DNA from: Mesobacillus jeotgali
GTDB taxonomy: Bacteria > Bacillota > Bacilli > Bacillales > Cytobacillaceae
NCBI RefSeq assembly: GCF_900166585.1
Contig: NZ_FVZC01000007.1
Span: 768,139-832,138 of the forward strand
Length of the DNA stretch: 64,000 nt
Reading direction: 5' to 3'
How positions within the stretch are numbered: position 1 is the first letter of the stretch; each line of letters opens with the position of its first letter. The notes under the pieces were generated by a model. It was not told the origin of the DNA and made no database searches. It saw only the letters and a list, made by a program, of their open reading frames with translations. Below, in pieces: positions 4,701-57,690 of the stretch. The position numbers and the translations under genes are program-made.

Positions 4701-4732
4701 AGACTCTCAACCTTGGTTGGGGTCTTTTTTTT
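4701..4732 (+). terminator. Intrinsic terminator after the acyl-CoA ligase cluster
   Basis: AGACTCTCAACC / GGTTGGGGTCT form a slightly bulged stem followed by a run of eight T. It closes the ligase operon and lies 39 bp before the tandem array that follows. Confidence 0.8.
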
Positions 4733-4770
4733 ATTGATGAACTGGTAAAAAACGTTCAGAATTTCCAGGT

Positions 4771-4881
4771 CGCCAATAAAATTTTATTTTCGCCAATAAA
4801 GTCAGAATACCGCCAATAAAAATTAAGGATCGCCAATAAAAATTAAGGATCGCCAATAAAGTTGTGAACTTCGCCAATAAA
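4771..4881 (+). repeat. 20-bp tandem array of CGCCAATAAA
   Basis: Six copies of CGCCAATAAA begin at 4771, 4791, 4811, 4831, 4851 and 4872. The first five are exactly 20 bp apart; the spacer is A+T rich and identical (AATTAAGGAT) in two units. No reading frame is conserved. It lies just after a terminator. Confidence 0.9.
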
Positions 4882-5087
4882 TTATTTACCGGATAAAAAA
4901 CAAATACTGGACGCCTTTTTACATCGTAATCTTTTGTGTATTTATAATTTTACGGCCGAAAATTACTCAATGGAAATTTCTTAAAAAATATCCAGGGCAT
5001 CAATAACCAAGCCGCCTAAAAGGTAGTCTTCATGTCTTTCATTGAATCTAGATCGCTGGCGACCTAAAATTTTAATTTGGAAAAGCA
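4882..5087. other. A+T-rich spacer, nothing recognised
   Basis: Between the 20-bp array and the sdpR promoter. No reading frame, RNA fold or repeat was recognised here on either strand. Confidence 0.5.
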
Positions 5088-5137
5088 TTGCAAAAATCAA
5101 GAAAGTGATTTAGTATTTAGTTAAATAACTAAATACT
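5088..5137 (+). promoter_or_regulatory. sdpR promoter with palindromic operator
   Basis: TTGCAA (5088-5093), a 17-bp spacer and TAGTAT (5111-5116) form a good sigma-A promoter. Starting inside the -10 box, 5112-5137 is a perfect inverted repeat with 12-bp arms (AGTATTTAGTTA and its complement) around a central AA. Placement over the -10 and start point is what an ArsR-type autorepressor would use to shut off its own operon. Confidence 0.85.
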
Positions 5138-5165
5138 TAAATTCCAAAAAAGGGAGGTCTTTAGT

Positions 5166-5447
5166 TTGAATGAAGCATTCAAAGCACTTTCAGACCCTAC
5201 CAGAAGAAGAATCCTCGACCTGTTAAAGGAAAGGGATATGACAGCTGGAGAAATCGCAGACCATTTTAACATGACAAAACCAAGCATTTCCCAACACTTG
5301 AAACTGCTGAAGAATGCTAATTTAATTCAGGATGAGAAGAAAGGGCAATTTATTATCTATTCTCTCCATACGACAGTTTTCCAGGAGCTCATTAGCTGGG
5401 CGTTCAGCTTTACAGAAAATAAGAAAGAACAGGAAGGGGAAAAATAA
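5166..5447 (+). CDS. sdpR: ArsR-family winged-helix repressor, SdpR-like
   Basis: A 93-residue ArsR/SmtB-type repressor: FKALSDPTRRRILDLL at the N-terminus and a helix-turn-helix at about 25-50 (MTAGEIADHFNMTKPSISQH). No Cys metal-binding pair is present in the recognition helix, so it is not a metal sensor of the ArsR type. The start is TTG 5166 with GGGAGG 7-8 bases upstream. It is followed after one base by an SdpI-family gene, the arrangement of B. subtilis sdpRI, where SdpI sequesters the repressor SdpR at the membrane when the SdpC toxin is bound. The large palindrome over its promoter is the likely target. The symbol rests on family and neighbour, not on alignment. Confidence 0.8.
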   Translation: MNEAFKALSDPTRRRILDLLKERDMTAGEIADHFNMTKPSISQHLKLLKNANLIQDEKKGQFIIYSLHTTVFQELISWAFSFTENKKEQEGEK

Positions 5448-5448
5448 A

Positions 5449-6081
5449 ATGAAAAAGCATGTATTGCCTTTGACAATGATTGGCCTGCTAGTACTTGCAT
5501 GGGTTATAGCATTTCCAAAGCTGCCCGAACAAGTTCCGATTCACTGGAATGTAAATGGAGAAGCGGATGGGTTTGCTTCGAAACTAAATGCGATGTTTTC
5601 TACCCTTGGAATCATGGTAATCCTGTATATATCTATGTCTTTTTTGCCAAAAGTGGATCCGAGAAAAGCTAATTATAAATTCTTTTCGAAAAGCTACCAC
5701 ATCATATTAAATGCGATACTTGGAGTCTTTTTTGTAATCAACATCCTTGTGCTGGCAAATGCGGCAGGATATGATGTCCCTATTGGCAGCATCGGCCCAT
5801 TGGTTGTCGGGATTATTTTTATGATTCTAGGAAACTATATGCCGCAGGTGCGATCAAATTTTTTCATAGGAATCCGCACTCCATGGACCCTTAGCAATGA
5901 AGAAGTTTGGAAGAAGACACATAGGGCTGCTTCAAAAATTTTCTTCTTTGGCGGGCTGGCCATGATATTGGCCACTTTCGCTCCTGTATACTGGAAGGAA
6001 ACGGTGTTAATCAGTGTGATTGCCCTGACTGTGGTCGCTCCATATATTTATTCGTATGTTTTATTCAAAAGACGGTTGTAA
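5449..6081 (+). CDS. sdpI: SdpI-family membrane immunity / signal protein (DUF1648 + SdpI)
   Basis: 210 residues with about six hydrophobic segments. The N-terminal part carries the DUF1648 pattern (PEQVPIHWNVNGEADGFASK) and the C-terminal part the SdpI pattern FFIGIRTPWTLSNEEVWKKT. In B. subtilis SdpI gives immunity to the SdpC cannibalism toxin and acts as its receptor. Start ATG 5449 has AGGAAGGGG upstream; the gap to sdpR is one base, so the two are co-transcribed and probably translationally coupled. No sdpABC genes are in the window, so this is an orphan immunity pair here. A decayed paralogue of its 3' half lies at 9784-9985. Confidence 0.85.
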   Translation: MKKHVLPLTMIGLLVLAWVIAFPKLPEQVPIHWNVNGEADGFASKLNAMFSTLGIMVILYISMSFLPKVDPRKANYKFFSKSYHIILNAILGVFFVINILVLANAAGYDVPIGSIGPLVVGIIFMILGNYMPQVRSNFFIGIRTPWTLSNEEVWKKTHRAASKIFFFGGLAMILATFAPVYWKETVLISVIALTVVAPYIYSYVLFKRRL

Positions 6082-6126
6082 AGCTCTGAATGCAAAGAAC
6101 TAGATAGGGAACCAGGAACAATAATG

Positions 6127-6148
6127 GACAGTCCTAAAAAGGACTGTT
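6127..6148 (+). repeat. Left target duplication of IS copy 1: sdpI terminator hairpin
   Basis: The 22 bases are repeated exactly at 7886-7907. They consist of a complete hairpin (ACAGTCC, loop, GGACTGT); only the right copy keeps the following T-run. This is the sdpI terminator duplicated by insertion of the IS element. Confidence 0.9.
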
Positions 6149-6247
6149 CAGTTTGTAGACAAAAGGGATTCGGAATGCTCTCATTCCGAACCCCTTTTTG
6201 GATCTCATCGGATTTTTCAAAGGAAATAGACTCTATTTGCTATACTT

Positions 6248-7606
6248 TTAGGCCATTTTTGGACTTCTCCATGTCCAGTTGGCCATCTTCTTCAGGTTCA
6301 AGGCAGCGAAAGTAAGCATCGCCTGCATCGACAATTTTTTAAGCCCCCTCAGGGTTGTCCAACGCATGCCATGCTTTTCTTTTGCATCTGCGAATACACG
6401 CTCAATGGTTTCCTTGCGCTTCGCATAGATTTGTTTTACTTCTGGTGTATGCCTTAAGTGATCCGCCTCTTCCACATACTCCTGCCAGATATGGCGCGTT
6501 ACCACCTTTTGGTGGTCTTTGCTTTCTGTGCATTGCCCTAAAAACGGGCAGGTTGCGCAGATCTGTTTGGGGGATTTATATTCACGATATCCCTCTTTCG
6601 TTGTGGTCGAATACTTTAGGACCTCACCGGCAGGACACAAGTAACAGTCGAAAAATTCGTCATACACATATTCATATTTGCGGAAAAAGCCATCCTTCGT
6701 CCGTGGTCGGGTATAAGGCAAAGCAGGGGTCATTTCGTTTTCCATCAGAAACTTCGTAATAGCTGGAGTTTTATAGGCTGCATCTGCCGCAACGGCATTA
6801 GGCTTTCCAACTTTCTCTATCACTTGTTCTACCATTGGCTCAAGGATCAGGCTGTCATGCGTATTCCCAGGTGTCACGATGGTTCCCAAAACAAATCCAT
6901 TCCGATCTGATGCCGCATGGAAAGAGTAGGCAAACTGCTTTGTTCGCTCGTCCTTGACGTAGTATCCACTCTCAGGATCGGTCGTGCTTTCCTTGATTTC
7001 CTTCGTTTCTTCCTTCTCGAATTTATCGGGAGGAAAAGGTTTCTTCCCGTGGTCTTCTCGATCCTGATTGATCTCTTCCTGGAGTTTCTCTTGATACACC
7101 CGTGTTTCCTTTCGCACCACTTTCTTCTGGAATTTATTCTTATTCGCACTTGCTTTTACATGGGTTGAATCAATAAAGACATGTTCAGCACTAATAAGTT
7201 TCTTATCCGCTGCGGTCTTAAGAATTCGATAGAAGATCTGTTCAAACAAATCGGTGTCTTTAAAACGGCGTTCGTAATTCTTCCCGAAGGTGGAGAAATG
7301 GGGCACTTTATCATGGAATCCATAACCCAAAAACCAGCGGTAGGCCATGTTCGTTTCTACTTCGGCAATGGTCTGGCGCATGGAGCGGATGCCAAAGGTA
7401 TATTGAATGAAGCTGAGCTTAATTAGAATCACAGGGTCAATGCTTGGGCGACCTACTTCGGAATACACATCCTTCACCAAATCATAGATGAAAGAAAAAT
7501 CAAGGGCTGCTTCCATCTTACGGACTAAATGGTCCTGAGGAACCAGTTGGTCTAAAGCAACCATCTCTAATTGATCTCGTTGGATTGGATTATTTTTCGA
7601 AAGCAT
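6248..7606 (-). CDS. IS1182-family transposase (copy 1)
   Basis: 452 residues, full length for the family. The N-terminal DUF772-type domain has PSIDPVILIKLSFIQY and YRWFLGYG, followed by a DDE domain with the first Asp in VFIDSTHVKA, the second in AVAADAAYKTP and the Glu in KETIERVFADAKEKHGMR. The four-Cys insertion CYLCPAG...CATCPFLGQC is also present. The start is ATG 7606, six bases after GAGGTG; the upstream GTG and ATG lie in or next to that ribosome site. No frameshift or stop is seen, so the gene looks active. Confidence 0.92.
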   Translation of the reverse strand: MLSKNNPIQRDQLEMVALDQLVPQDHLVRKMEAALDFSFIYDLVKDVYSEVGRPSIDPVILIKLSFIQYTFGIRSMRQTIAEVETNMAYRWFLGYGFHDKVPHFSTFGKNYERRFKDTDLFEQIFYRILKTAADKKLISAEHVFIDSTHVKASANKNKFQKKVVRKETRVYQEKLQEEINQDREDHGKKPFPPDKFEKEETKEIKESTTDPESGYYVKDERTKQFAYSFHAASDRNGFVLGTIVTPGNTHDSLILEPMVEQVIEKVGKPNAVAADAAYKTPAITKFLMENEMTPALPYTRPRTKDGFFRKYEYVYDEFFDCYLCPAGEVLKYSTTTKEGYREYKSPKQICATCPFLGQCTESKDHQKVVTRHIWQEYVEEADHLRHTPEVKQIYAKRKETIERVFADAKEKHGMRWTTLRGLKKLSMQAMLTFAALNLKKMANWTWRSPKMA

Positions 7607-7682
7607 CTTCATCACCTCAAGCGTTATATGTATCTATTTTAAAAGAGACTTATGGTTAGTTCCACACTAAGTTGAGGAATCC

Positions 7683-7815
7683 TGTTGATTGAAGTGGAAG
7701 GCGCGTAGACTCCTGCGGGATCAGACGGACAGGTGAGACCCCGCAGACGCCAACGGCGGCGAGGAGGCTCAGCGCCGGCCCCGCGGAAAGCGAAGCGCCT
7801 GGAACGGAAATCAAC
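7683..7815. repeat. G+C-rich multi-stem palindromic block inside the IS
   Basis: About 133 bp, far richer in G+C than its surroundings, bounded by GTTGATT and AATCAAC which can pair. Inside are GGCGC/GCGCC, CTGCGGG/CCCCGCAG and a GGCG...CGCC stem around GAGGAGG. The same block is at 28668-28801 in copy 2. I recognise its phrases (ACTCCTGCGGG, GTGAGACCCCGCAG, GAGGAGGCTCA, CGGAAATCAAC) as a repeat that recurs in Bacillaceae genomes; this is from memory. Confidence 0.75.
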
Positions 7816-7885
7816 GGCCCCATTCCAGCACAAACCAAAAAGACTGTAGACAAGCTCGATCTCCATCAAGTTTGTCTACAGTCTG

Positions 7886-7912
7886 GACAGTCCTAAAAAG
7901 GACTGTTTTTTG
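7886..7912 (+). terminator. sdpI terminator, now displaced behind the IS (right target duplication)
   Basis: ACAGTCC-TAAAA-AGGACTGT followed by T6. Bases 7886-7907 are the exact right copy of the 22-bp target duplication. The left copy still lies 45 bp after the sdpI stop but lacks the full T-run. Confidence 0.85.
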
Positions 7913-8280
7913 GTTTTAATTCAATATATTCACTAAATGGGAGTTGAGATCAGGCCGGCAGAAGGGATTTATTCTGACAATCCTATCCTTTTTTAATGGA
8001 AAATGTTGATTTTAAACTCGGCTGCTTGGAAAGACTCAAGGGAAAACATCATATTAATCAAATTATTGAAAAAAATTTCAAAATACTTTGACTTAACATT
8101 TCGATAAGTGAACATAATTTTATAAATGTTTAAACAAGTTTTACATAATTTCTTTAAATATTAAAAAACAATCATTGTTTCCAATGTTTTGTTAGAATTA
8201 GGTGAATAATTCTTGTTTTGGAAAAAAATAAACTTTATTTTTGTTCAAAGTTATATTAACAAATGTTCATTTATTGTGTT
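7913..8280. other. A+T-rich region before nupC, no gene
   Basis: No reading frame or RNA fold recognised. It carries TGAACA at 8109 and TGTTCA at 8242 and 8264; the last two are 22 bp apart, and could be half-sites of a regulator of the nucleoside permease, but this is weak. Confidence 0.4.
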
Positions 8281-8306
8281 ATATTTATAAGGCATTAAGA
8301 GGGAAA

Positions 8307-8320
8307 TGAAAGCGTTAACG
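8307..8320 (+). promoter_or_regulatory. Catabolite-responsive element (cre)-like site before nupC
   Basis: TGAAAGCGTTAACG matches the CcpA consensus TGWAANCGNTNWCA at all but the last base. It lies just downstream of a TATATT at 8280, in the presumed leader, which is a position for CcpA repression of a nucleoside uptake gene. Confidence 0.6.
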
Positions 8321-8533
8321 CCAAGGAGAGGAATGGAAAACTAATTGCTATGTTAGTCTAATTTTTTCTCTGCCCTGCTTCTGTTCTTGAATATTTACTT
8401 TAGAGGCTGACCGGGTTTTGATTGTAAGCCTTTACAGATTAACATTCTTTATTTTAGTAAAGAATAGTTGGCAGGAATATTAACTATTATTAAATCTTAT
8501 TTATCACTCAACTTAGATTTGGAGGCAAAGTAT

Positions 8534-9709
8534 ATGTCAATCTTAATTGCAATCGTAGGTATCCTGGCCCTTTTAGGCATTGCCTGGATTATGTCCAACG
8601 ATAAGAAAAACATTAACTATCGTGCAGTCGCCATCATGCTGGCTGTGCAGTTGTTCATAGCATGGTTTATGCTGAATACCTCAATTGGTCAGAAAGTATT
8701 GCAGCAAATTGTTAATGTATTTAACAAAATACTTTCTTTCGGTAACGAAGGAATTGCATTTGTTTTCGGTGATCTGGCAGGGAAAAACTATTTCTTTATC
8801 AACGTTCTAATGATGATCGTTTTCGTGTCGGCCTTGCTATCGATTTTAACTTATACAAGAATCTTGCCGTTTGCGATTAAATACATTGGAGGAGCAGTTG
8901 CCAAGGTTACTGGCCTTCCTAAAATCGAATCCTTCGTAGCGGTTAACTCAATGGTATTCGGCGATACTACCGCGATTCTTTCCGTGCAATCTCAATTGCA
9001 CAAACTTTCGCCAAACCGTTTATTTATTGTTGTAACGTCTTCATTGGTAGCTGTTTCTTGCTCGATTTTGGGTGCTTACATGCAAATGATACCTGCTGAG
9101 TTTGTGCTGGTGGCTTTGCCGATTAACATATTCTCCGGATTGATTCTTTCATCAATGGTTGCTCCAGTATCGAAAGAAGAGGACGAGGATATCGACATAA
9201 AAGAAATGATTCCTGAAAAATCATTATTTGAAGCCATCGGAAACGGTGCATTGATTGGTGGTAAAACCGCCCTAATCGTTGGTGCGATGCTCATCACTTA
9301 TATTGGCTTACTTGAGATGCTGAACTTCTTCCTTGATAATTTAGTAGGATTATCCTTCCAGGGAATCCTTGGATATATTTTTGCTCCGATTGCCTTCATC
9401 ATGGGGATTCCTACATCTGAAATTGTCAGGGCGGGTTCTGTAATGGGTACTAAAGTCGCTGCAAATGAATTTGTTGCCATGCTTGACTTTATGAAAATGA
9501 TTCCGGACATGTCACCGAAAACAGTAGGTATCGTGTCGGCATTCTTGATTTCTTTTGCTAACTTCTCTTCAATTGGAATTATTCTGGGAACAGTACAAGC
9601 GATCAATGGTGAACAGGCAAGCAGGTTGGCTAAGGTGGGTTTAAAGGTATTGTTAGTGGCTACAATGGGTTCCGTCTTAACTGGAACGATCGTAGGACTA
9701 TTCCTGTAA
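8534..9709 (+). CDS. nupC: Concentrative nucleoside transporter, NupC family
   Basis: 391 residues (about the size of B. subtilis NupC), a polytopic membrane protein of the CNT family that imports nucleosides with H+ or Na+. Visible family features are VFVFGDLAGKNYFFINVLMMIV-like sequence in the first third, KIESFVAVNSMVFGDTTA, and the C-terminal GIPTSEIVRAGSVMGTK and FANFSSIGIILGT. Start ATG 8534 is chosen over the earlier TTG 8468 because GGAGG lies 8 bases before it and homologues begin with the first membrane helix. Monocistronic, with a terminator behind and a cre-like site ahead, consistent with catabolite control. Confidence 0.9.
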   Translation: MSILIAIVGILALLGIAWIMSNDKKNINYRAVAIMLAVQLFIAWFMLNTSIGQKVLQQIVNVFNKILSFGNEGIAFVFGDLAGKNYFFINVLMMIVFVSALLSILTYTRILPFAIKYIGGAVAKVTGLPKIESFVAVNSMVFGDTTAILSVQSQLHKLSPNRLFIVVTSSLVAVSCSILGAYMQMIPAEFVLVALPINIFSGLILSSMVAPVSKEEDEDIDIKEMIPEKSLFEAIGNGALIGGKTALIVGAMLITYIGLLEMLNFFLDNLVGLSFQGILGYIFAPIAFIMGIPTSEIVRAGSVMGTKVAANEFVAMLDFMKMIPDMSPKTVGIVSAFLISFANFSSIGIILGTVQAINGEQASRLAKVGLKVLLVATMGSVLTGTIVGLFL

Positions 9710-9729
9710 AAATAGATGTGATAAAAAAA

Positions 9730-9773
9730 GGATCCTCTTTCTCCTATTTCAAAGGTGAAAGGGGATTTTTTTT
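9730..9773 (+). terminator. nupC terminator
   Basis: ATCCTCTTTC and GGTGAAAGGGGAT pair around a loop, followed by T8. Confidence 0.8.
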
Positions 9774-9783
9774 GTTTTACTCT

Positions 9784-9985
9784 GGGGAATTCGCATTCCG
9801 TGGACCCTTAGTAATGACGAGGTCTGGAAGAAAACACATCGGCTGATTCAAATTGGATGTGGCCATTATATGGCTCTTTCGTTTCTGTTTATTGGAATGG
9901 AGGGGTGTGATCTATAATGTGAATGTCCTGACTATCAACGCACCATATATTTATTCTTTCTTTTATTCAAAAGATGGCAAAAGAT
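9784..9985 (+). pseudogene. Decayed 3' part of a second sdpI
   Basis: Bases 9786 onward read GIRIPWTLSNDEVWKKTHR, matching GIRTPWTLSNEEVWKKTHR of the intact SdpI. After a disrupted middle with deletions, another frame reads APYIYSF...YSKDGK, matching the SdpI end APYIYSYVLFK. The DNA around TATATTTATTC and TTTTATTCAAAAGA is shared with the end of the intact gene. No start, no continuous frame, no 5' half. The following hairpin also resembles the sdpI terminator, so this is the remnant of a duplicated sdpI unit. Confidence 0.85.
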
Positions 9986-10005
9986 GTTACCGAAACAAAA
10001 AATGG

Positions 10006-10032
10006 ACAATCCAAAAGGACTGTTTTTTTTTA
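10006..10032 (+). terminator. Terminator of the sdpI relic
   Basis: ACAATCC-AAAA-GGACTGT then T9. It resembles the hairpin behind the intact sdpI (ACAGTCC...GGACTGT), supporting common origin. Confidence 0.8.
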
Positions 10033-10130
10033 TCTTTTAATTCAAAAAATTAGCCAAAAGGGGTATGATAGAACATATAAAATTCGGAAGACGAAATAAC
10101 GGTAATGGGATACAGGGGGGATTCATCTTC

Positions 10131-11855
10131 ATGAGTATATTTTCATTTATAAAACCATATCGCATCCCTATTGCGATTGCGCTTAGCTTGATGCTCGTTG
10201 AATTGGCAGTTGAACTTGTCCAGCCGCTTTTGATTGCAAAAATCATCGATGAGGGGATAGTTGCCAGGGACCTCGACACGGTCGTCAAATGGGGCGGTGT
10301 CATGCTTGGAATCTCTTTTCTAGCTTTTGCATCAGGTATTGCCAATTCGTTTATCGCTGCACATGCAGGGCAAAGTTTTGGCTTTGACCTTCGTGAAAAG
10401 CTTTTTTCGAAGGTCCAGGCTTTTTCCTTCACGAATTTCAGTCATTTTCCATCCTCTTCCTTGATCACGAGGATCACCAATGATGTGACCCAGCTGCAGA
10501 ATACCTTTTTCATGAGCCTCCGGATTGCGATGCGTGCACCACTGCTGGTGATCGGGGGAATCATCATGGCGATGACGGTTCATGTAAAATTGGCCCTGCC
10601 ATTTGTCATCATCATCCCGCCTCTTTTAATTTTCCTCATTTGGATCATGACAAAGGCAGCAGGTTTGTTCAAAAGTGTCCAAAAGCGTCTCGATAAAGTG
10701 AATAGTGTAATGAGAGAAAACCTGGTGGGCATGAGACTGATCAAAGCTTTTGCAAGGGGGAATTACGAGGGCACAAGATTTTCAAAAGCCAGCACTAAAC
10801 TAAAGGATCGAACTGTATTTGCTTTAAGGGTTACTGAGGTAACCATTCCAGTACTTCTTCTATTCATGAACCTGAGTGTTATTGCCGTTCTCTGGTTTGG
10901 TAAAATAGACGTTCAGTCAGGTAGGGTGTCAGTTGGCGAAGTGGTTGCGATTGTGAACTACGCTGCGAGGATTACAGCTGCTTTTTCAATGTTTTCATGG
11001 ATTATCATGGTATTTTCCCGTGCAAGGGCGTCGGCTGAGCGTGTAACCGATGTGATGAACGAGGAAATCGATCTTGAAGATACTGCTGGCAGCCGGGATG
11101 GTTACGAAATTACCAGGGGTAAAGTTGAGTTTGATAAGGTTTCTTTCCAGTTCCCCAACACCAACATCCCAATCCTCCAAAATTTATCATTCACAATTAA
11201 CCAGGGAGAAACAGTGGCTGTCCTGGGAGCTACCGGAGCAGGAAAAACAGCCATGTTCCAGCTTATCCCGCGGTTGTATGATGTCACCAGCGGCGAAATC
11301 CGGATCGATGGCAGGAACATAAAGGAGATGAAGCTTAAAAGCCTAAGGGAGGGAATCGGATACGTACCACAGGAGGCATTACTATTCACCGGATCCATAA
11401 AGGAGAATTTAGCGTGGGGTAAACAAGAAGCTGCTGATGAGGAATTAGTGAAGGCAGCATCTGACGCACAAATCCATGAAACAATTCAGAAACTGCCAAA
11501 TCAGTACGATACGCTTCTTGGGCAAAAAGGCGTCAACCTTTCAGGCGGGCAAAAGCAGCGATTATCCATCGCCCGGGCTTTGATTAAAAACCCTAAAATC
11601 CTTCTGCTTGATGACAGCACAAGTGCGCTCGATTTAAAAACGGAAGCCAAACTGCTGGATGCTATAAGCAAATATCAGTGTACGACGATTATCATTACAC
11701 AAAAGATCAGCACAGCGAAGGAAGCTGATAAAATTCTTCTGCTGGAAGACGGAACCTTGATAGGCTGCGGAAACCATGAATATTTGCTGGAGAATTCTTC
11801 ACTTTACCAGGCAATATACAACTCCCAGTTCGGGGAGGTGAAGGCAGGGTGCTAA
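10131..11855 (+). CDS. yfiB: ABC exporter half-transporter with degenerate ATP site, YfiB-like
   Basis: 574 residues: a six-helix exporter transmembrane domain (about 1-300) fused to an ATPase domain. Walker A GATGAGKTA starts at residue 366 and the signature LSGGQKQR is intact, but Walker B reads LLLDDSTSALD, with Asp495 where the catalytic Glu should be, and the switch is ITQKIST with Gln524 in place of His. So this subunit contributes a non-hydrolysing site, as in heterodimeric exporters such as BmrCD and TM287/288. Start ATG 10131 follows GGGGGG by about 10 bases. It overlaps the next gene by 7 bases, which codes for the partner. Confidence 0.88.
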   Translation: MSIFSFIKPYRIPIAIALSLMLVELAVELVQPLLIAKIIDEGIVARDLDTVVKWGGVMLGISFLAFASGIANSFIAAHAGQSFGFDLREKLFSKVQAFSFTNFSHFPSSSLITRITNDVTQLQNTFFMSLRIAMRAPLLVIGGIIMAMTVHVKLALPFVIIIPPLLIFLIWIMTKAAGLFKSVQKRLDKVNSVMRENLVGMRLIKAFARGNYEGTRFSKASTKLKDRTVFALRVTEVTIPVLLLFMNLSVIAVLWFGKIDVQSGRVSVGEVVAIVNYAARITAAFSMFSWIIMVFSRARASAERVTDVMNEEIDLEDTAGSRDGYEITRGKVEFDKVSFQFPNTNIPILQNLSFTINQGETVAVLGATGAGKTAMFQLIPRLYDVTSGEIRIDGRNIKEMKLKSLREGIGYVPQEALLFTGSIKENLAWGKQEAADEELVKAASDAQIHETIQKLPNQYDTLLGQKGVNLSGGQKQRLSIARALIKNPKILLLDDSTSALDLKTEAKLLDAISKYQCTTIIITQKISTAKEADKILLLEDGTLIGCGNHEYLLENSSLYQAIYNSQFGEVKAGC

Positions 11856-13651: not shown

Positions 13652-13652
13652 C

Positions 13653-13676
13653 GAGGAGCCTAGGGCTCCTCTTTTA
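13653..13676 (+). terminator. yfiBC terminator
   Basis: Perfect GAGGAGCC / GGCTCCTC stem with a TAG loop and T4. Confidence 0.85.
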
Positions 13677-23804: not shown

Positions 23805-24043
23805 CAAGTAACTTGCTACTCCACAAGATGTATAAGAAATCATCCATTTATAAACTTTGCCGCGGTACAAAATTCCACTTGACCATTTTTAACCTAAACG
23901 ACGCAAGCCCTACCTCTCTTGCATCCTTACGGCTCCGAAGCCGATCCAGTGTGAATAAGTTGTTACCTAAAAATAAAAGCAGAACGCCATTAATTGTTTA
24001 CATTATATTTGTTGTGATTCAAGTTACTTCTTTTTGGCGAAGC
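23779..24043 (-). ncRNA. Candidate structured non-coding RNA, about 265 nt, family not recognised
   Basis: A transcription unit with no credible protein. A perfect sigma-A promoter precedes it and the bidirectional hairpin at 23779 ends it. Near the 5' end AAGTAACTTG (24029-24020) pairs over ten bases with CAAGTTACTT near the 3' end (23815-23806), closing the molecule. Inside are a CGGCTTCGGAGCCG stem with a UUCG loop (23943-23930) and an eight-pair stem GATGCAAG / CTTGCGTC (23925-23918 with 23907-23900), separated by short single-stranded, partly purine-rich stretches. A TACCGCGG near 23865 recalls the T-box core but the rest of a T-box is missing and no gene follows. No 6S, tmRNA, RNase P or SRP features seen. 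Confidence 0.65.
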
Positions 24044-30623: not shown

Positions 30624-30653
30624 CCCCCGTTTTCACGGGGTTTTTGTTTTTTG
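30624..30653 (+). terminator. yfhJ terminator
   Basis: CCCCGT-TTTC-ACGGGG then TTTTTG TTTTTTG. Lies 34-86 bp before the 52-bp tandem array. Confidence 0.88.
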
Positions 30654-30686: not shown

Positions 30687-31120
30687 ATGCACTTTAGATT
30701 TGCAGAAATTTACCGACTAGATGGGAAATCTCAATAACCGGTCACATAAATAAAAATTTCTCACCGACAGAGAAGATGAAAAAAGGAGATCGGTCACATG
30801 AATAACACATATGTGACCGAAGAGAAGAGGAAACGCGAAGATCGGTCACATAAATAACAAATATGTGCCCGAAGAGAAGGAAAAATGCAGAGATGGGTCA
30901 CATAAATAACAAATAAGTGCCCGATGAGAAGGGGAAACGCGTAGGTGGGTCACATAAATAACAAATATGTGCCCGAAGAATAGGGGAAACGCGTAGATGG
31001 GTCACATAAAGAACAAATATGTGCCCGAAGAGAAGGGAAAACGCGTAGATGGGTCACATAAAGAACAAATATGTTACCGAAGTGAAGGGAATACCTGAAA
31101 ACCGGCCACTTAACCTGCAG
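30687..31120. repeat. 52-bp tandem array with CGGTCACAT / ATGTGACCG palindromes
   Basis: Unit starts at 30739, 30791, 30843, 30895, 30947, 30999, 31051 and 31103, always exactly 52 bp apart, with a degenerate unit before 30739. Each unit begins CGGTCACATAAA or GGGTCACATAAA. In the second unit CGGTCACAT and ATGTGACCG form a perfect inverted repeat with an 11-bp gap; others have one change (ATGTGCCCG). The rest of the unit is purine-rich (GAAGAGAAGGGGAAA). No frame is conserved since 52 is not a multiple of three. Confidence 0.92.
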
Positions 31121-35250: not shown

Positions 35251-35526
35251 ATGGCAAAACAACCTAACCAAACTCAAGCTGGAACTAACATTCAAGAAGT
35301 TCGTCAGCAAAACGCTCAATCTGCTGGACGCCAAGGTCAATTTGGTACTGAATTTGCTAGCGAAACTAACGCTGCAGAAGTACGCCAGCAAAACGCTCAA
35401 GCAGCTCGTGGCGGACAAGGCCAATTCGGTACTGAATTCGCAAGCGAAACTAACGCTCAAGAAGTACGCCAGCAAAACCAGCAAGCTGAAGCTCGCAAAA
35501 GCCAAAACTCTGGTCAACAGCGTTAA
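35251..35526 (+). CDS. sspE: Gamma-type small acid-soluble spore protein
   Basis: 91 residues, extremely rich in Gln, Asn, Ala and Glu, without Cys or Trp. It is built from two repeats of about 31 residues, each with GQFGTEFASETNA, the cleavage site for the germination protease, followed by EVRQQNAQ. Gamma SASP does not bind DNA; it is an amino acid store for the germinating spore. Start ATG 35251 follows GGAGGTG. Own terminator behind, expected sigma-G control. Confidence 0.95.
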   Translation: MAKQPNQTQAGTNIQEVRQQNAQSAGRQGQFGTEFASETNAAEVRQQNAQAARGGQGQFGTEFASETNAQEVRQQNQQAEARKSQNSGQQR

Positions 35527-46732: not shown

Positions 46733-47062
46733 TTTTCCTGAAAAGCTGCTGTATCTTCCTTAAAATCCAATTATATTCCTGAAAAGCTGCTGTATCTTCC
46801 TTAAAATCCAATTATATTCCTGAAAAGCTGCTGTATCTTCCTTAAAATCCAATTATATTCCTGAAAAGCTGCTGTATCTTCCTTAAAATCCAATTATATT
46901 CCTGAAAAGCTGCTGTATCTTCCTTAAAATCCAATTATATTCCTGAAAAGCTGCTGTATATTCCTTAAAATCCAATTATATTCCTGAAAAACTGCTGGAT
47001 ATTCCTTACCATCGAACCATATTCCTGAATCACTGTAGGAATTCCTTGAAATCCTGATATAT
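46733..47062. repeat. 41-bp tandem array (two TTCCTKAAAA half-units of about 20 bp)
   Basis: TTCCTGAAAA recurs at 46735, 46776, 46817, 46858, 46899, 46940, 46981 and (as TTCCTGAATC) 47022: exactly 41 bp apart each time. Within each unit TTCCTTAAAA occurs 21 bases after TTCCTGAAAA, so the true motif spacing is 20-21 bp. The central units are identical; units at the right end have decayed. It lies 15 bp from the gltB terminator. Confidence 0.92.
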
Positions 47063-47076
47063 TCTTTCAAAACGAT

Positions 47077-47107
47077 AAATGGCCCCGTTTTAGAAGCGGG
47101 GCCATTT
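47077..47107 (-). terminator. gltB terminator
   Basis: AAATGGCCCCG / CGGGGCCATTT around TTTTAGAAG; very stable stem just after the gltB stop. Confidence 0.9.
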
Positions 47108-51862: not shown

Positions 51863-51877
51863 TTTTGTGTATGAAAA

Positions 51878-51906
51878 ATAACCGATGCCAATCAGGCACC
51901 GGTTAT
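51878..51906 (-). terminator. hemL terminator
   Basis: ATAACCG..GCC / GGC..CGGTTAT stem 19 bases after the hemL stop. Confidence 0.8.
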
Positions 51907-51924
51907 GTATAAGAAACTGCATTT

Positions 51925-53220
51925 TTATTCATTCGCCATCGAGTGAAAAGCCTGGTCAACAGCGTGAAGGGTAGCTTCGATATCTTCCTGTGTATGGGCA
52001 ATGGTCACGAACCATGCCTCATATTTGGATGGTGCAAGGTTGATTCCCTGCTGCAGCATGAGATTGAAGAAGCGTGCGAACATTTCGCCATCTGTGTTCT
52101 CCGCCTGTTCATAATTCTCGATTTTTTCTGTTGTAAAATAGATGGTCATTGCACCTTTCAGGCGATTAATCGTGATAGGAATGCCATGCTTGCTTGCTGA
52201 AGATGTGATTCCTTCTTCCAGCATGGCGCCGAGCTGGTCAAGATACTCATAGACACCATCTTGTTTCAACACCTCAAGGCAGGCGATACCTGAAAGGATG
52301 GAAGCGGGATTTCCAGCCATCGTCCCAGCCTGATACGCGGGGCCAAGCGGTGCAACCTTTTCCATGATTTCAGCACGTCCGCCATAAGCGCCAATCGGCA
52401 ATCCGCCGCCGATGATTTTACCCATTGCTGTCAAATCCGGGGTAACACCCAATAAATCCTGTGCTCCGCCGTACATAAAACGGAAAGCCGTGATTACTTC
52501 ATCAAATATAATCAGGGCTCCAGCCTGGTGAGTTAGCTCTTTAACTTCCTCTAGGAATCCGGGCTTCGGTTCGACGATTCCAAAATTGCCGACAATCGGT
52601 TCCACTAAAACAGCTGCGATTTCGCTGCCCCATTTTTCAAGAGCTTCCTTAAAAGGTTCAATATCATTGAATGGAACCGTTATGACTTCCTGGGCGATGC
52701 TTTTTGGCACACCGGCTGAGTCTGGAGTTCCAAGAGTGGATGGACCAGAACCAGCTGCCACCAGTACAAGGTCAGAGTGGCCGTGATAGCATCCTGCAAA
52801 TTTAATAATTTTGTCCCTGCCCGTGTAGGCGCGGGCGACACGAATTGTGGTCATCACTGCCTCTGTCCCTGAGTTAACAAAGCGCACCTTATCAAGTGCT
52901 GGCATTGCCTCTTTAAGCATTTTGGCGAATTTGACCTCATGTGGTGTTGGTGTTCCGTACAGCACGCCTGTTTCAGCAGCCCTCTTGATTGCTTCTGTTA
53001 TATGCGGGTGGGCATGTCCGGTAATGATCGGACCATAAGCCGCCAAATAATCGATGTATTGATTGCCGTCCACATCCCAGAAGTACGCTCCCTGGGCACG
53101 TTCCATCACGATAGGGGCTCCGCCTCCAACCGCTTTGTAGGAACGGGAAGGACTGTTGACTCCGCCGACAATATGTTCTAGTGCTTCATTATGTATTCGC
53201 TCAGAATTCGTTCTTTGCAT
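51925..53220 (-). CDS. hemL: Glutamate-1-semialdehyde 2,1-aminomutase
   Basis: 431 residues, class III aminotransferase fold. Converts glutamate-1-semialdehyde to 5-aminolevulinate in tetrapyrrole synthesis. PLP-binding Lys268 is in [42 protein letters not shown] and FDEVITAFR are the other cofactor segments. By position beside ygaE and ygaF it corresponds to B. subtilis GsaB, the second copy of the enzyme, rather than the one in the hemAXCDBL operon. GGAGG precedes the ATG. Confidence 0.92.
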
Positions 53221-53331
53221 TGTAAAACCTCCTACTATATAACTGCTTTTCTATTTTATCATTATTTCTCTATTTTACAGATTGTTTAACTTTTCGTTCA
53301 TTTATTTGGATAAAAAAGAAGCCCAAAAAGC

Positions 53332-54078
53332 TTACAGCTGCTTTTCGAGCTTAGGGGGCCAGAAGAAGGCCTTTTTATATTTGTTGTAGTGAAGAAGAGG
53401 TGGTTTTGTCAGTAGATCTTGATTGATAAAAGGAATGAGCATCTCTTGTGAAAGCTCTGCGTTTGCTCGCTGAAGCTCCCATTTTGTATGGTGGATATCT
53501 CCCCTGACAAGTTTGCTGCCCCGTTTTGTCCACAGGCAGTATCTCTCGGTGAACCAATGCTCCAGGGTCCCTTGCTCCGCGAAAAAAATATCGGATGATG
53601 GTTTATACCTGAGGCTCAGTTTTGCGTTCACATCTCCGGCAGGGACACGCTTAGAGTGCAGCTCAAAGTAGTCTTTTTCTTGAAAATCAATATTAGCCTG
53701 TTTATAATTCAGTCCAAAAACAGCCTTAGCCCCAATTACTGCCAGCAGTTGGTTTGCATCGAGAGTAAAGAAATATACACCAGATCTTGGACCGTATGAT
53801 ACATATGTCCTTACATTCACTTCCACATAGGAACTGAAGAACGGAATGGGAGGAGTCATTCTGCCATGTGTGTTTTTTACCTTAAACGGAACAATGCCAA
53901 TCCAGGCACTGCCATCGAAAGTGTCGATTTCCAGCTCACGGGGGACATGCTCCCTTAATGAAGCGGAAGGGACTGGCCAGTGAGCGAATAAAGTGTGATG
54001 CCATTCCTGGGTCATCAGCCAGTTCATGTCAGGCAGCGGATAGGGGCGGTGGCTCTGAATAAGCAATTCCTTGTTCAA
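53332..54078 (-). CDS. YqjF family protein (DUF2071)
   Basis: 248 residues. WLMTQEWHHTLFAHWPVP, LEIDTFDGSAWIGIVPF, a NVRTYV strand and TLEHWFTERYCLWTKRG place it in DUF2071/YqjF. The fold resembles acetoacetate decarboxylase-like barrels (inference); no function known. TTG start 54078 lies after GGGAGG. Not part of the B. subtilis order at this place as I remember it. Confidence 0.85.
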   Translation of the reverse strand: MNKELLIQSHRPYPLPDMNWLMTQEWHHTLFAHWPVPSASLREHVPRELEIDTFDGSAWIGIVPFKVKNTHGRMTPPIPFFSSYVEVNVRTYVSYGPRSGVYFFTLDANQLLAVIGAKAVFGLNYKQANIDFQEKDYFELHSKRVPAGDVNAKLSLRYKPSSDIFFAEQGTLEHWFTERYCLWTKRGSKLVRGDIHHTKWELQRANAELSQEMLIPFINQDLLTKPPLLHYNKYKKAFFWPPKLEKQL

Positions 54079-54199
54079 TCAACATTCCTCCCTTTTAGGG
54101 TTAAACTACCCCTGAAAAAGCAAAGGTAATCAGGCATAGCATTTGTTTTAGCCCGGAGGATTGGCTAAACTGTTTGAGTGACTAAAGGAGGAAATACTC

Positions 54200-55213
54200 A
54201 TGAACGCGATTGAAGTGAACGGTTTGCGGAAAGAATTCAAGGCATATTCAAGCCGATCGGGATTATCGGGTGCTTTCCGTGATCTTTTTACACGTAATTA
54301 TAAAATAGTTCCTGCAGTGAACGATATCAATTTCACTGTCAAACAGGGAGAGATGGTCGGTTACATTGGGGAAAATGGGGCCGGGAAATCGACGACTATC
54401 AAAATGCTGACCGGAATCCTGACCCCAACTTCAGGTAGTGTCATCGTAAATGGTATGAATCCACATAAGGAGAGGGAAAGGTTTGTTCAGACAATCGGGG
54501 TCGTATTTGGCCAGCGGTCCCAGCTCTGGTGGGATATCGCTGTCCAGGAATCATTCCGCCTGTTGAAAAAGGTATATAAAGTTTCAGATGCTCAGTATAA
54601 CGAGCATATGGATCATGTCATCAAAACACTTGATCTTGAGCCTTTGCTCGATAAGCCGGTAAGGAAGCTTTCACTAGGACAGAGGATGCGCTGTGAACTT
54701 GCAGCTGCGCTTATCCATAACCCGCCGCTGCTTTTCCTTGATGAACCCACAATCGGCCTTGATGTACTCGTAAAGCTGAGGATCAGGGAATTTTTAAAAG
54801 AAATCAATGAAAAGTACAACACGACAATCCTGCTTACCACACATGACCTGACGGATATCGAGGCATTATGCGAGCGGGTCATCATGCTTGATGAAGGAAA
54901 TATCATTTATGATGGTGCGCTGAAAAGCTTGAAGGAAACATGGGGCGAAGGAAAGGAAATCAGCTTTGAGTTTCTTGAAAAAGCGGAACTCAGCCGTCTT
55001 GAGTCTTTGACGGGAGACCTTGATATCAAATGGGAGCTGAATGAAAGGAAACAGATTTTTACCGCGTTGACCTCTGATGATGAAGAAGTTGTGTCGCAGG
55101 TTATCGCCCGTACGGTCGCTGCCTATAAGGTCAGGGACGTGAAGATCAATGAGCCATCCACAGAAGAAATAATCCGCAATATTTATGACAAAGGAATGGC
55201 GCTGAATGGATAA
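54200..55213 (+). CDS. ABC-2 type transporter ATP-binding protein
   Basis: 337 residues. Walker A GENGAGKST, QRSQLWWDIAVQESF, signature LSLGQRMRCELAAALI, Walker B LLFLDEPTIGLDV and switch LLTTHDLTDIEAL, with an 80-residue C-terminal extension. This branch accompanies two paired membrane proteins of the ABC2_membrane_6 (DUF990-like) family, as found next. AAAGGAGG precedes the ATG. Overlaps the next gene by 8 bases. Likely an export system for an antibiotic or other lipophilic compound; substrate unknown. Confidence 0.9.
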   Translation: MNAIEVNGLRKEFKAYSSRSGLSGAFRDLFTRNYKIVPAVNDINFTVKQGEMVGYIGENGAGKSTTIKMLTGILTPTSGSVIVNGMNPHKERERFVQTIGVVFGQRSQLWWDIAVQESFRLLKKVYKVSDAQYNEHMDHVIKTLDLEPLLDKPVRKLSLGQRMRCELAAALIHNPPLLFLDEPTIGLDVLVKLRIREFLKEINEKYNTTILLTTHDLTDIEALCERVIMLDEGNIIYDGALKSLKETWGEGKEISFEFLEKAELSRLESLTGDLDIKWELNERKQIFTALTSDDEEVVSQVIARTVAAYKVRDVKINEPSTEEIIRNIYDKGMALNG

Positions 55214-55997
55214 ATATCTCGAAATGATCCGCATCCGTTTTTTAATGATGCTCGCGTACAGGACGAATTACTATACAGGTATCTTAATATATAGCATCAA
55301 CATCGGTGCCTACTATTTCCTCTGGAATGCGATCTATGGAGGGAAGGGTGAAATAGAGGGCTTGAGCGCCCTGCAGATGACCACCTATGTTGCAGTTGCC
55401 TGGATGGCTAGGGCATTTTATTTTAACAATATCGACAGGGAAATGGCGACGGAAATTAAAGAAGGAAAGGTAGCCGTCGAACTGATCAGGCCATACAGCT
55501 ATCTTGGCATGAAAACGATGCAGGGACTGGGGGAAGGGATTTTCAGATTGTTCTTCTTTTCCGTTCCTGGAATGGTAATCGTGGCCTTGATTTTTCCATT
55601 GGAGTTTTCCGCTGATGTTTCTACTTGGGGCATGTTTGCTATTTCAATCGTGCTAAGTTTCTTTATTAACACCCAATTGAACCTGCTTACGGGAATCACT
55701 ACTTTCTTCCTATATAATAATACGGGCCTGATTCGGGCCAAACGCGTCCTGATTGATTTGTTCTCAGGCCTATTGCTGCCAATCAGCTTCTTCCCGGGCT
55801 GGGCTCAGGAAATCATGAGATTCCTGCCATTTCAGGGGATCAGCTATATTCCAAGCATGATCTTTACCAATGGCTTCACAGGCGGGGAGGCAATCGAAGG
55901 GCTTATACTGCAGGCCGCATGGGTATTGATTTTAGTGATTCCAACCCAAATTCTGTGGGTCGTCGCGAAAAAACAATTGATCATACAGGGAGGGTGA
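55206..55997 (+). CDS. ABC-2 type permease subunit 1
   Basis: 263 residues, six membrane segments, starting MDKYLEMIRIRFLMMLAYRT with the typical short cytoplasmic helix containing a Tyr-Arg-x-Asn turn, and LLLPISFFPGWAQEIMRFLP before the last helices, a phrase conserved in ABC2_membrane_6. It overlaps the ATPase gene and ends 3 bases before the second permease, so the three genes form a coupled operon and the two permeases probably a heterodimer. Confidence 0.88.
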   Translation: MDKYLEMIRIRFLMMLAYRTNYYTGILIYSINIGAYYFLWNAIYGGKGEIEGLSALQMTTYVAVAWMARAFYFNNIDREMATEIKEGKVAVELIRPYSYLGMKTMQGLGEGIFRLFFFSVPGMVIVALIFPLEFSADVSTWGMFAISIVLSFFINTQLNLLTGITTFFLYNNTGLIRAKRVLIDLFSGLLLPISFFPGWAQEIMRFLPFQGISYIPSMIFTNGFTGGEAIEGLILQAAWVLILVIPTQILWVVAKKQLIIQGG

Positions 55998-56000
55998 CGA

Positions 56001-56786
56001 GTGTTCTACATCAGCATGTTCTTTCAATATGTCGCCCAGTATATGAAAACAAGACTTGAATACAGGGCGGATTTGGTTGTTGAAATTTTTTCTGATCTAT
56101 TATTCCAGGCTGTTAACCTGATCTTTATCCTTGTGGTATTTGACCATACAGAATTTCTGAATGGCTGGAGCCGGGATGAAATTATCTTTATTTATGGTTT
56201 TTTCCTAGTGCCATACGCGCTCTTTTCAGCATTTTTCAATATATGGGATTTCAATGAACGTTATATCGTTAAAGGAGAACTTGACCGGATCCTGACAAGG
56301 CCTATCCACAGTCTGTTCCAGATCATCCTGGAGCGCATGGAATTGGAGTCATTGTTCGGGGCAGTGACCGGCCTGGCTGTCATGTTTTATGCAGGGAGCC
56401 GTCTGGAACTTGAAGTAAGCTGGTCCGATCCTTTCTTGTTTATTTTGTTCGTCATAGGCGGAGTTCTTGTCTACGCAGGGATTTTTGTGTTGATTGCCTG
56501 CATCAGCTTCTGGGCAGATGCACGTACCTCGATTATGCCAATGATGTACAATATCGGAAATTACGGCCGTTATCCAGTCGATATCTATAACAAAGCAATC
56601 AGATTCGTGCTGACCTGGATCTTGCCATTCGCTTTTGTCGGAGTCTATCCCGCTGCCTATTTTCTCGGGAGGGACGAATGGTACGGTTATTCATTTTTAA
56701 CTCCAGTAATCGGGATCGTCTTCTTCGCCTTGTCTGTATTTGTTTGGAATGAAGGCGTAAAAAGATACCGCGGCGCCGGAAATTAA
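56001..56786 (+). CDS. ABC-2 type permease subunit 2
   Basis: 261 residues, six membrane segments. YMKTRLEYRADLVVEIFSDL at the N-terminus, LDRILTRPIHSLFQIILERM and the region SFWADARTSIMPMMYN and YPVDIYNKAIRF are typical of the second permease in these triads. GTG start 56001 follows GAGGGTGAC. A strong terminator follows, then the long 52-bp array. Confidence 0.88.
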   Translation: MFYISMFFQYVAQYMKTRLEYRADLVVEIFSDLLFQAVNLIFILVVFDHTEFLNGWSRDEIIFIYGFFLVPYALFSAFFNIWDFNERYIVKGELDRILTRPIHSLFQIILERMELESLFGAVTGLAVMFYAGSRLELEVSWSDPFLFILFVIGGVLVYAGIFVLIACISFWADARTSIMPMMYNIGNYGRYPVDIYNKAIRFVLTWILPFAFVGVYPAAYFLGRDEWYGYSFLTPVIGIVFFALSVFVWNEGVKRYRGAGN

Positions 56787-56799
56787 ATATTACTTAGTC

Positions 56800-56832
56800 A
56801 GACCGCTGCCAACGCGAGCAGCGGTCTTTTTG
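56800..56832 (+). terminator. Terminator of the ABC-2 operon
   Basis: AGACCGCTGC / GCAGCGGTCT around CAACGCGA, then TTTTTG. Confidence 0.9.
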
Positions 56833-56866
56833 TATTCAATGTTGTTGCGGCAGATTATTGCTTGGG

Positions 56867-57690
56867 AGAGGAATGTTTGTCAGAAGTAAGTAAGGAGAAC
56901 TTTGGACAGGATTGGGGGTGGAAGGAGAAAAGCTGTCAGAAGTGGGGTTGACTTTGGACAGGATTGGGGGTGGAAAGAGAAAAGCTGTCAGAAGTGGGGT
57001 TGACTTTGGACAGGTTTGGAGTTGGGAGACGAAAAGCTGTCAGAAGTGGGGGTGACTTTGGACAGGTATGGGGATGGAAGGGGAAAAGCTGTCAGAAGTA
57101 AGGTGGACTTTGGACAGGTTTGGGGATGGAAGGGGAAAAGCTGTCAGAAGTAAGGTGGACTTTGGACAGGTTTGGAGTTGGGAGACGAAAAGCTGTCAGA
57201 AGTGGGGTTGACTTTGGACAGGTTTGGAGTTGGGAGACGAAAAGCTGTCAGAAGTGGGGTTGACTTTGGACAGGTTTGGGGATGGAAGGGGAAAAGCTGT
57301 CAGAAGTAAGGTGGACTTTGGACAGGTTTGGGGATGGAAGGGGAAAAGCTGTCAGAAGTAAGGGCGACTTTGGACAGGTTTGGGGGTGGAAGGAGAAAAG
57401 CTGTCAGAAGTAAGGTGGACTTTGGACAGGATTGGGGGTGGAAGGAGAAAAGCTGTCAGAAGTAAGGCGGACTTTGGACAGGTTTGGGGATGGAAGGGGA
57501 AAAGCTGTCAGAAGCAGGGTCGGCTTTGGACAGGTTTGGGGGTGGAAGGAGAAAAGCTGTCAGAAGTAAGGTGGACTTTGGACAGGTTTGGGGGTGGAAG
57601 GGGAAAAGCTGTCAGAAGCCATGAGAACATTGGACAGGTTCAAGGCTAGAAGGAGAAAAGCTGCCAGAATTAAAATCGACTTTTGGCATT
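56867..57690. repeat. 52-bp tandem array, about 15-16 units, purine-rich plus strand
   Basis: GGACAGG begins at 56904 and recurs every 52 bases without exception to 57632 (15 positions), with partial units on both sides. Each unit also has GAAAAGCTGTCAGAAG, so GACAG and CTGTC form an inverted pair. Between them lies a G-rich variable block (TTTGGGGATGGAAGGGG or ATTGGGGGTGGAAGGAG). Units differ at a few positions and variant types recur non-adjacently, indicating block duplications. No frame is conserved. Confidence 0.93.

Follow-up and report, generated by a model that had tools for sequence, protein, structure and literature searches.

Intergenic tandem arrays of two unit lengths and many sequences in Mesobacillus jeotgali and related genomes

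A 64,000-nucleotide stretch of the Mesobacillus jeotgali genome (contig NZ_FVZC01000007.1, positions 768,139 to 832,138 of the forward strand; hereafter the window, in which all window coordinates are counted from its first letter) contains four intergenic tandem arrays whose units are unlike in sequence and fall into two length classes, about 21 bp and about 52 bp. The same two lengths account for 49 of the 50 well-repeated non-coding arrays in a sample of this 4.63-Mb genome and in loci of its relatives, and the 52-bp units form imperfect palindromes whose mismatches are conserved. This property and the orientation of their purine-rich strand along replication are reported here as new. From these patterns we tentatively propose, with somewhat less than even confidence, that the arrays are phased recognition sites under purifying selection, candidates for carrying a cooperative lattice that repeats about every two or every five helical turns. 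Tandem Repeats Finder (TRF) recovers all four arrays of the window, the ones picked out in the initial annotation of this DNA:

4770..4881, plus strand: array 1, 21-bp class, with a (T/C)CGCCAATAAA core and variable 10–11-nt spacers; TRF period 20, 5.6 copies
30739..31091, plus strand: array 2, 52-bp class, GTCACAT family; TRF period 52, 6.8 copies
46733..47070, plus strand: array 3, a 41-bp higher-order unit of the 21-bp class; TRF 46735–47029, 7.2 copies
56877..57690, plus strand: array 4, 52-bp class, GCTGTC family; TRF 56888–57673, period 52, 15.1 copies

Two lengths, rigid spacing and free spacers

Two of the starts first assigned to these arrays shift on closer reading, as the core of array 1 begins at 4770 rather than 4771 and the start of array 2 proper moves from 30687 to about 30739. 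The periods had also been described as free of slippage, which is true of arrays 3 and 4; array 1 runs in steps of 20, 20, 20, 20 and 21 bp, and array 2 has a few insertions or deletions (indels; TRF gives 0% for array 4, 1% for array 1 and 4% for array 2, some of the last stemming from a 51-letter TRF consensus). Direct reading shows that the spacers of array 1 are mostly unlike, and its core recurs at 20–21-bp steps elsewhere in the same genome and in the genus. The unit of array 3, read in the same way, consists of 21- and 20-bp halves, TTCCTGAAAAGCTGCTGTATC and TTCCTTAAAATCCAATTATA, around a TTCCT(G/T)AAAA core, and the right end of this array is degenerate. The unit of array 2 is an imperfect palindrome, (C/G)GGTCACAT...ATGTG(C/A)CCG, with a purine-rich linker, and that of array 4 has the half-sites AAAGCTGTCAGAAGT and ACTTTGGACAGGTTT, free spacers of 7 and 15 nt and, again, a purine-rich linker.

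Period counts were made on 40 evenly spaced 20-kb stretches of the M. jeotgali genome (800 kb in total), on 80 loci from relatives gathered by one ABC-2 protein scan, and on 57 stretches from outside the genus (1.14 Mb), four of them from genome G090 of the same family and the remainder from other families. Given that the relatives' loci cover a single syntenic region, that several belong to close relatives with arrays in common and that a few carry labels of unlikely genera (Chryseobacterium, Pseudomonas), they sample species rather than genomes. An array was counted as well-repeated if TRF gave it at least 3.5 copies and it was non-coding (no long open frame); this excluded arrays of fewer copies (27 of 55 in the M. 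jeotgali sample, 38 of 64 in relatives, 42 of 49 outside the genus) and coding arrays (2, 2 and 4, respectively). Of the well-repeated arrays, 25 of 26 in the M. jeotgali sample have a period of 20–21 (or 41–42) or 51–53 bp, the exception being a 10-bp repeat, and all 24 in the relatives' loci belong to the two classes. Their unit sequences are many and different, unlike one another between arrays and between genera, and higher-order units of 41, 104 and 156 bp occur. Outside the genus just three well-repeated non-coding arrays were found, two of them in the classes. The excess at about 20.8 and 52 bp that the initial annotation had anticipated is thus strongly borne out for arrays of at least 3.5 copies. 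Its idea of helical phasing holds as far as rigid spacing at about two and five turns is concerned and needs modifying in one respect: were the helical face all that mattered, well-repeated units of three, six or seven turns would be expected, and none is present among the counted arrays of the sample and the relatives, so the ruler is specific, which speaks for two fixed rulers of about two and five turns.

Two further observations concern unit length. At locus L288 (G078:C1:2750268-2753850), GCTGTC-family matches recur every 416 bp (8 × 52) as a higher-order array, and the TRF filter listed no 52-bp array there. Genome G003 (6.8 Mb, another family) has, at L187:45-985 and L227:4540-5066, a 51-bp unit in 18.5 copies and a pair of 41-bp arrays with 2–3 copies, and similar lengths therefore exist outside the family; 60- and 66-bp repeats of 2–3 copies also occur in this genome.

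Spacing within the arrays is equally rigid when counted without TRF, over distinct neighbouring pairs of motifs at most 130 bp apart in M. jeotgali loci. GCTGTC is followed by GGACAG at 24 bp in 194 of 210 pairs and the distance back is 28 bp in 195 of 219; the corresponding spacings are 32 (23/24) and 20 (25/25) in the GTCACAT family, 23 and 30 (41/43 each) in the CCTTATG family, and 20 (15/15) and 32 (9/13) in the TGTCCGAT family. The half-site spacings sum to 52–53 in all four families. The fixed arm-to-arm distance that we considered as a common rule varies by family and depends on the anchoring letters, and it was not used. A direct test of pure helical phasing, in which the GCTGTC family was examined for phase jumps of about 10.5 bp (units of 42 or 62–63 bp), gave one 42-bp step and none of 62–63 bp, not above background, and this lack of excess again speaks for fixed rulers. 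Across 37 M. jeotgali arrays of the 52-bp class substitutions (1684) outnumber inserted or deleted bases (123), and substitution amounts to 4.0% in the palindrome arms versus 9.5% elsewhere.

The 21-bp class can be followed through its core. Pairs of CGCCAATAAA cores at any gap of 3–33 nt were searched for in 200 genomes of the class and found 23 times in M. jeotgali, 86 times in G065 and 19 times in G058, with none in the other 197; among the matches listed (59), all steps are 20–21 bp or the double, 40–42 bp, and the backward-pattern control gave one match, in G189. In a search of the family, phased CGCCAATAAA pairs were present in 20 of 21 genomes of the genus (backward control: one match, in G501). 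Genome G067 has neither CGCCAATAAA pairs nor a GCTGTC match, and G074 has the pairs and no GCTGTC match. In G068 the steps are 20 bp in 45 of 70 cases and 21 bp in 25 of 70, as counted by eye in a search that allowed just these two values. Within the loci examined the 10-nt spacers are AT-rich, and GTGAA occurs in 9 of 11 spacers of 11 nt versus 0 of 21 spacers of 10 nt.

The two classes also differ in symmetry, the 21-bp units being direct repeats that are not palindromic. Among the 65 distinct unit consensuses of the 51–53-bp class, 31 form a palindrome unmatched by any of 60 shuffles and the others are weaker (33 of 70 before five repeated arrays were dropped). The departures from symmetry are themselves conserved. 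In GCTGTC units, one from each of 22 arrays of the genus, A10/G28 is present in 18 of 22 and G4/G34 in 16 of 22, figures to be read with the fact that GCTGTC and GGACAG are fixed by the search pattern and invariant by construction, with positions 10 and 34 free. GTCACAT half-sites read ATGTGCCCG in one member of the pair and ATGTGACCG in its partner (22/23 and 24/25 pairs), an A/C difference. A conserved difference between half-sites gives the sites of the 52-bp class a direction.

Orientation relative to replication

The purine-rich strand matches the local GC skew in 20 of the 22 arrays of the sample and window, the two others being 47–49% purine, and in 11 of 13 further M. jeotgali arrays that were picked by sequence matches and compared with the skew of the two nearest sampled stretches, for a total of 31 of 35. 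In five other genomes of the genus it follows GC skew in 23 of 23 arrays, two of which are only 52% and 55% purine; given that the 20 stretches concerned were chosen around GCTGTC matches, this figure represents mainly the GCTGTC family. Tallied by eye over the 8 scored of 39–49 candidates per genome, the distinct GCTGTC loci listed for G068, G070, G076, G078 and G079 are all on the plus strand in the first part of the contig and all on the minus strand in the second (40/40), and in G075 all eight fit into two arcs with a shifted origin. On the three large contigs of M. jeotgali, in counts that omit the small contigs, 16 of 18 GCTGTC loci and 7 of 7 GTCACAT loci agree with the direction of replication. 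For the 21-bp class we dropped the notion of perfect polarity, as the full listing of G068 shows both strands.

Gene direction does not explain this polarity: the arrays of L276, L285 and L287 are on the plus strand though the fraction of coding length on that strand is 0.40–0.52, and those of L079 and L080 run with replication and against their flanking genes. Purine-rich 8-mers are strand-skewed outside the arrays as well.

Gene context and orthologous sites

Each array of the window adjoins a terminator, as the initial annotation had remarked; that of array 3 lies on the gltB side, since this array sits between two minus-strand genes, gltB and then ArAE. Pfam assigns the array-flanking genes to an AMP-ligase, an ArsR-type regulator, a WVELL protein, YdjM, glutamate synthase, an aromatic acid exporter, an ABC-2 permease and an ion channel. 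The other features of the window are as follows:

4698..4737, plus strand: intrinsic terminator behind the AMP-ligase gene (Pfam), upstream of array 1; terminator scan
30625..30648, plus strand: intrinsic terminator behind the WVELL-protein gene (Pfam PF14043), upstream of array 2; terminator scan
35275-35478, plus strand: fifth TRF array, 84 bp, coding, within a 91-amino-acid open reading frame (ORF) at 35251-35526
47077..47107, minus strand: terminator-like hairpin behind gltB (Pfam), beside array 3; read from sequence
56801..56834, plus strand: intrinsic terminator behind the ABC-2 permease gene (Pfam PF06182), upstream of array 4; terminator scan
57739..57777, plus strand: promoter-like block (GGACTTGCTTGCATACT...CGTATAG) before the ion-channel gene, the downstream limit of array 4

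The hairpin at 47077-47107 has a short T-run and was missed by the simple terminator scanner; relatives carry similar hairpins at the gltB 3′ site. The block at 57739..57777 is conserved, its first half exact in 8 of 10 loci (L090–L099) and its second half in 10 of 10 whether or not an array is present, and it appears promoter-like in sequence. The repeat protein of the fifth array presumably resembles a gamma-type small acid-soluble spore protein; family searches gave no result for it. Rfam at gathering thresholds gives no match over any array of the window, so that a known structured RNA family was set aside for them; the only matches in the window are to 16S ribosomal RNA and to BsrC. The latter, a small RNA family (RF01410), matches at 23888-23974 on the plus strand with 74.2 bits.

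Context in the M. jeotgali sample was determined with a home-made gene caller and a simple terminator scan, and terminator distances were compared with random intergenic points (300 placements) and with random points within the same regions. The 52-bp class (n = 19) lies in 12 tandem, 5 convergent and 2 divergent regions (4.4 divergent expected) and the 21-bp class (n = 18) in 8, 7 and 3 (4.2 divergent expected); in tandem regions the arrays are somewhat nearer to the upstream stop (mean fraction 0.40 for the 52-bp and 0.35 for the 21-bp class). In the 52-bp class 6 of 19 arrays have a terminator no more than 100 bp away, where 5.2 would be expected from the random intergenic points and 5.8 from points in the same regions; in the 21-bp class the figure is 11 of 18, compared with 5.1 (0 of 300 placements reach 11) and 8.9 (p = 0.087), respectively. 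The genome-wide placement behind terminators that had been predicted from the window therefore finds no support in the 52-bp class. In the 21-bp class terminators are closer, chiefly owing to the regions that it occupies, and once region choice is allowed for the link is weak.

At orthologous sites the arrays come and go among close relatives and the two lengths replace one another. The gltB 3′ site is periodic above all shuffles in 18 of 57 loci, with lags of 20, 21, 41, 51, 52 or 103 only, and the site between the ABC-2 and channel genes in 13 of 75 loci, 11 of them in the classes and the exceptions at 58 and 110; at both sites shuffles (five base shuffles per site) never exceed 14, and arrays score 16–561. 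In the closest relatives the gltB site is occupied by a 20–21-bp array (L090, L093 and L096), of which the window has the 41-bp version, or by an unlike one of 51 bp (L092, L094 and L099). At the ABC-2–channel site the GCTGTC array is shared by the window, L092 and L094; L090 and L091 have a different 52-bp array there and L096 one of 21 bp, and no array exceeds the threshold in L095, L097, L098 and L099. In these relatives arrays lie mostly between the terminator and the conserved promoter-like block, though in L093 a short 53-bp array precedes the terminator. At the gltB 3′ site of L091 (about 700-1050), remnants of a 20–21-bp array enclose an unrelated insert (..GGCGCTTCGCTTTCCGCGGG..) that resembles a miniature inverted-repeat transposable element.

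Known systems and candidate explanations

Among the open-licence papers that we searched, no title or abstract opening describes such arrays or a rule of two lengths in Bacillaceae, which is weak evidence of absence. To judge from the passages of PMC3532100, the elements nearest in kind are the STAR elements of Staphylococcus aureus, intergenic direct repeats with a conserved GC-rich core, locus-specific spacers and units of about 50 nt, which expand and contract, have species-specific positions and are of unknown function (PMC3532100). The arrays of the window type are likewise intergenic, with locus-specific spacers and variable copy number. However, STAR has one fixed 14-bp core, and those passages show no second class of 20–21 bp, palindrome or replication polarity. 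Searches for pairs of the STAR core T(G/A/T)TGTTG(G/T)GGCCC(C/A), as exact TGTTGKGGCCC at a gap of 27–57 nt, found none in the M. jeotgali genome (G000) and were positive in one of 398 genomes of the class, which is of another family and has steps of 60–61 bp that vary with a T-run. We therefore do not assign the arrays to STAR, the repeated core being absent. The iterons of plasmid origins are direct repeats of about two helical turns (20–22 bp) that a Rep-type initiator protein reads along one face of the DNA; the 21-bp class resembles them in repeat form, with no claim of membership, and differs in being dispersed over many chromosomal loci per genome. Array 1, with a constant motif and unlike spacers of near-equal length, also recalls the clustered regularly interspaced short palindromic repeats (CRISPR), the repeats of which are 24–48 bp long with spacers of similar size and accompanying cas genes, in contrast to the 10-bp core, 10–11-nt spacers and many dispersed loci found here; by these repeat and spacer lengths we do not count the arrays as CRISPR. 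STAR-like and tandem repeats have been miscalled as CRISPR, according to passages of PMC5294841.

Conserved sites, a fixed pitch and free spacers are what would be expected from a cooperative DNA-binding protein under selection. In the phased recognition-site arrays that we tentatively propose, proteins would assemble cooperatively along the DNA into a lattice whose pitch is near two or near five helical turns, with half-sites and pitch preserved by purifying selection; slippage or unequal exchange would alter copy number, and arrays would build up where little is disturbed, mostly from the upstream gene end to the downstream promoter. Given that half-site direction tracks replication in the GCTGTC and GTCACAT families, we infer that the 52-bp class may have a replication-polar job, possibly as a signal that orients a DNA translocase; alternatively, a tightly bound lattice might be tolerated solely in the fork-permissive orientation. 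For this class such a replication-polar function, or else spread by a lagging-strand process like that of repetitive extragenic palindromic (REP) elements, is most likely, either of the two. A number of observations weigh against the recognition-site proposal, including the letters fixed by construction and the two arrays of only 52% and 55% purine mentioned above. Arrays below 3.5 copies are far less uniform in period: among the 27 of the M. jeotgali sample 22 distinct periods occur, between 11 and 86, with 11 of 27 in the classes, and those of relatives are in the classes in only 19 of 38. Arrays of other relatives agree with replication in only 16 of 25 cases, and the 21-bp class is weakly polar (15 of 21 loci in G068, with the origin assumed near coordinate 1, and 8 of 11 M. 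jeotgali loci, one outside the sampled skew). The sequence families are lineage-specific, so many site–protein pairs would be needed. In non-genus genomes of the family CGCCAATAAA pairs occur in 2 of 130, apparently by chance, the steps being 36 and 31, and G058, of another family, has the CGCCAATAAA core at 20–21-bp steps (C1:550331-550660 and others), for which descent, transfer and convergence are alternatives. Finally, GAGAAGGG and GGGNAGGG, which we take to be SpoIIIE/FtsK translocase motifs, occur 2 and 0 times in 12.1 kb of arrays, and 16 and 44 times on the leading strand across 850 kb of non-array sequence; they are too few in the arrays for SpoIIIE/FtsK marks to serve as the explanation.

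The polarity and conserved mismatches of the 52-bp class also allow a different account, in which a REP-like process acts on the lagging-strand template while it is exposed. REP elements, as passages of PMC3733652 describe them, are extragenic palindromes of 20–40 bp, some in tandem, in lineage-specific families with a GTAG or CGTC tag. The units of the 52-bp class resemble these and the related bacterial interspersed mosaic elements (BIME) in being extragenic imperfect palindromes in tandem, and differ in a unit that is constant at 51–53 bp across unlike sequences. In this rival account they would be mobile palindromes that fold into hairpins where the lagging-strand template is single-stranded and are copied or inserted beside existing units by a single-strand-specific enzyme, which would set the unit length; orientation would follow replication because one strand alone is exposed. 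Related single-strand transposons are known to be oriented by replication. The account fits the conserved mismatches, the dispersed and lineage-specific families, an orientation set by replication and not by genes, and the occupation of one orthologous site by unlike arrays. We nevertheless consider it somewhat unlikely: none of the 70 unit consensuses has a GTAG or CGTC tag within 9 nt of its palindrome foot (median for a tetramer 3, maximum 16), and the only Y1 transposases in the genome are four Y1_Tnp matches on contig C9 (L170–L173) with near-equal scores, IS200-like (one read, as a 160-amino-acid ORF), with no TRF array in their 3.4-kb loci. That search, made with the Y1_Tnp profile, showed no single-copy gene like those of REP-associated tyrosine transposases (RAYT), and with neither tags at the 70 feet nor arrays at the Y1 loci an origin from RAYT or IS200 was set aside. 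The REP-like process also leaves the non-palindromic 21-bp class unexplained.

More distant is the view that the arrays are functionless minisatellites, made by slippage or unequal exchange in free DNA by a replication or repair machinery that favours steps of about 20.5 and 52 bp. Their appearance and disappearance at one site between close relatives, the higher-order 41-, 104- and 156-bp units, the many other periods of low-copy arrays and the intergenic placement, with fewer in divergent regions by raw count, are in keeping with it, but it is improbable in light of cores and half-sites that stay fixed while spacers diverge, the rarity of indels relative to substitutions, the few such arrays outside the genus and the orientation by replication. 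The initial annotation had suggested a roadblock or terminator back-up, in which a protein on the arrays stops read-through at gene ends, and the terminators beside all four window arrays and the proximity of the 21-bp class to terminators relative to random points agree with that. Against it stand the near-chance distances of the 52-bp class, those of the 21-bp class relative to same-region points, the array that precedes the terminator in L093, the presence of 4 of 36 M. jeotgali 52-bp-class arrays of known context in divergent regions, and an orientation that tracks replication where flanking genes disagree (L079, L080), and we regard it as very improbable. An RNA-level function, with tandem hairpins in read-through transcripts that bind protein or base-pair with RNAs, would suit the palindromic units and the purine-rich strand, which is the sense strand in 19 of 24 tandem contexts; it is no more credible than the roadblock given the lack of Rfam matches over the window arrays, the conserved mispairs, linker and loop lengths that are fixed in a way needless for an RNA hairpin, and an orientation set by replication where replication and genes disagree. 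The single mechanism once proposed for both classes is at most a possibility, with the 52-bp class palindromic and strongly replication-polar in the genus and the 21-bp class made of direct repeats and weakly polar, and that earlier reading is overall partly supported.

A broader extension of the phased-site proposal, which we consider doubtful, is that Bacillaceae have chromosome-wide dispersed site arrays built on two rulers, in which sequences turn over and pitch is kept, and that the five-turn arrays, directional and aligned with replication, could be a polar scaffold for a fast-evolving DNA-binding or DNA-translocating protein. Bacterial intergenic repeats are usually seen as unrelated local families; here the sequences differ and the lengths do not, and the long class points along replication in six checked genomes of one genus. 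If a protein lattice is involved, the arrays would represent a new kind of chromosome organiser, and if a copying enzyme is responsible, they would represent a new route to tandem repeats with a built-in ruler.

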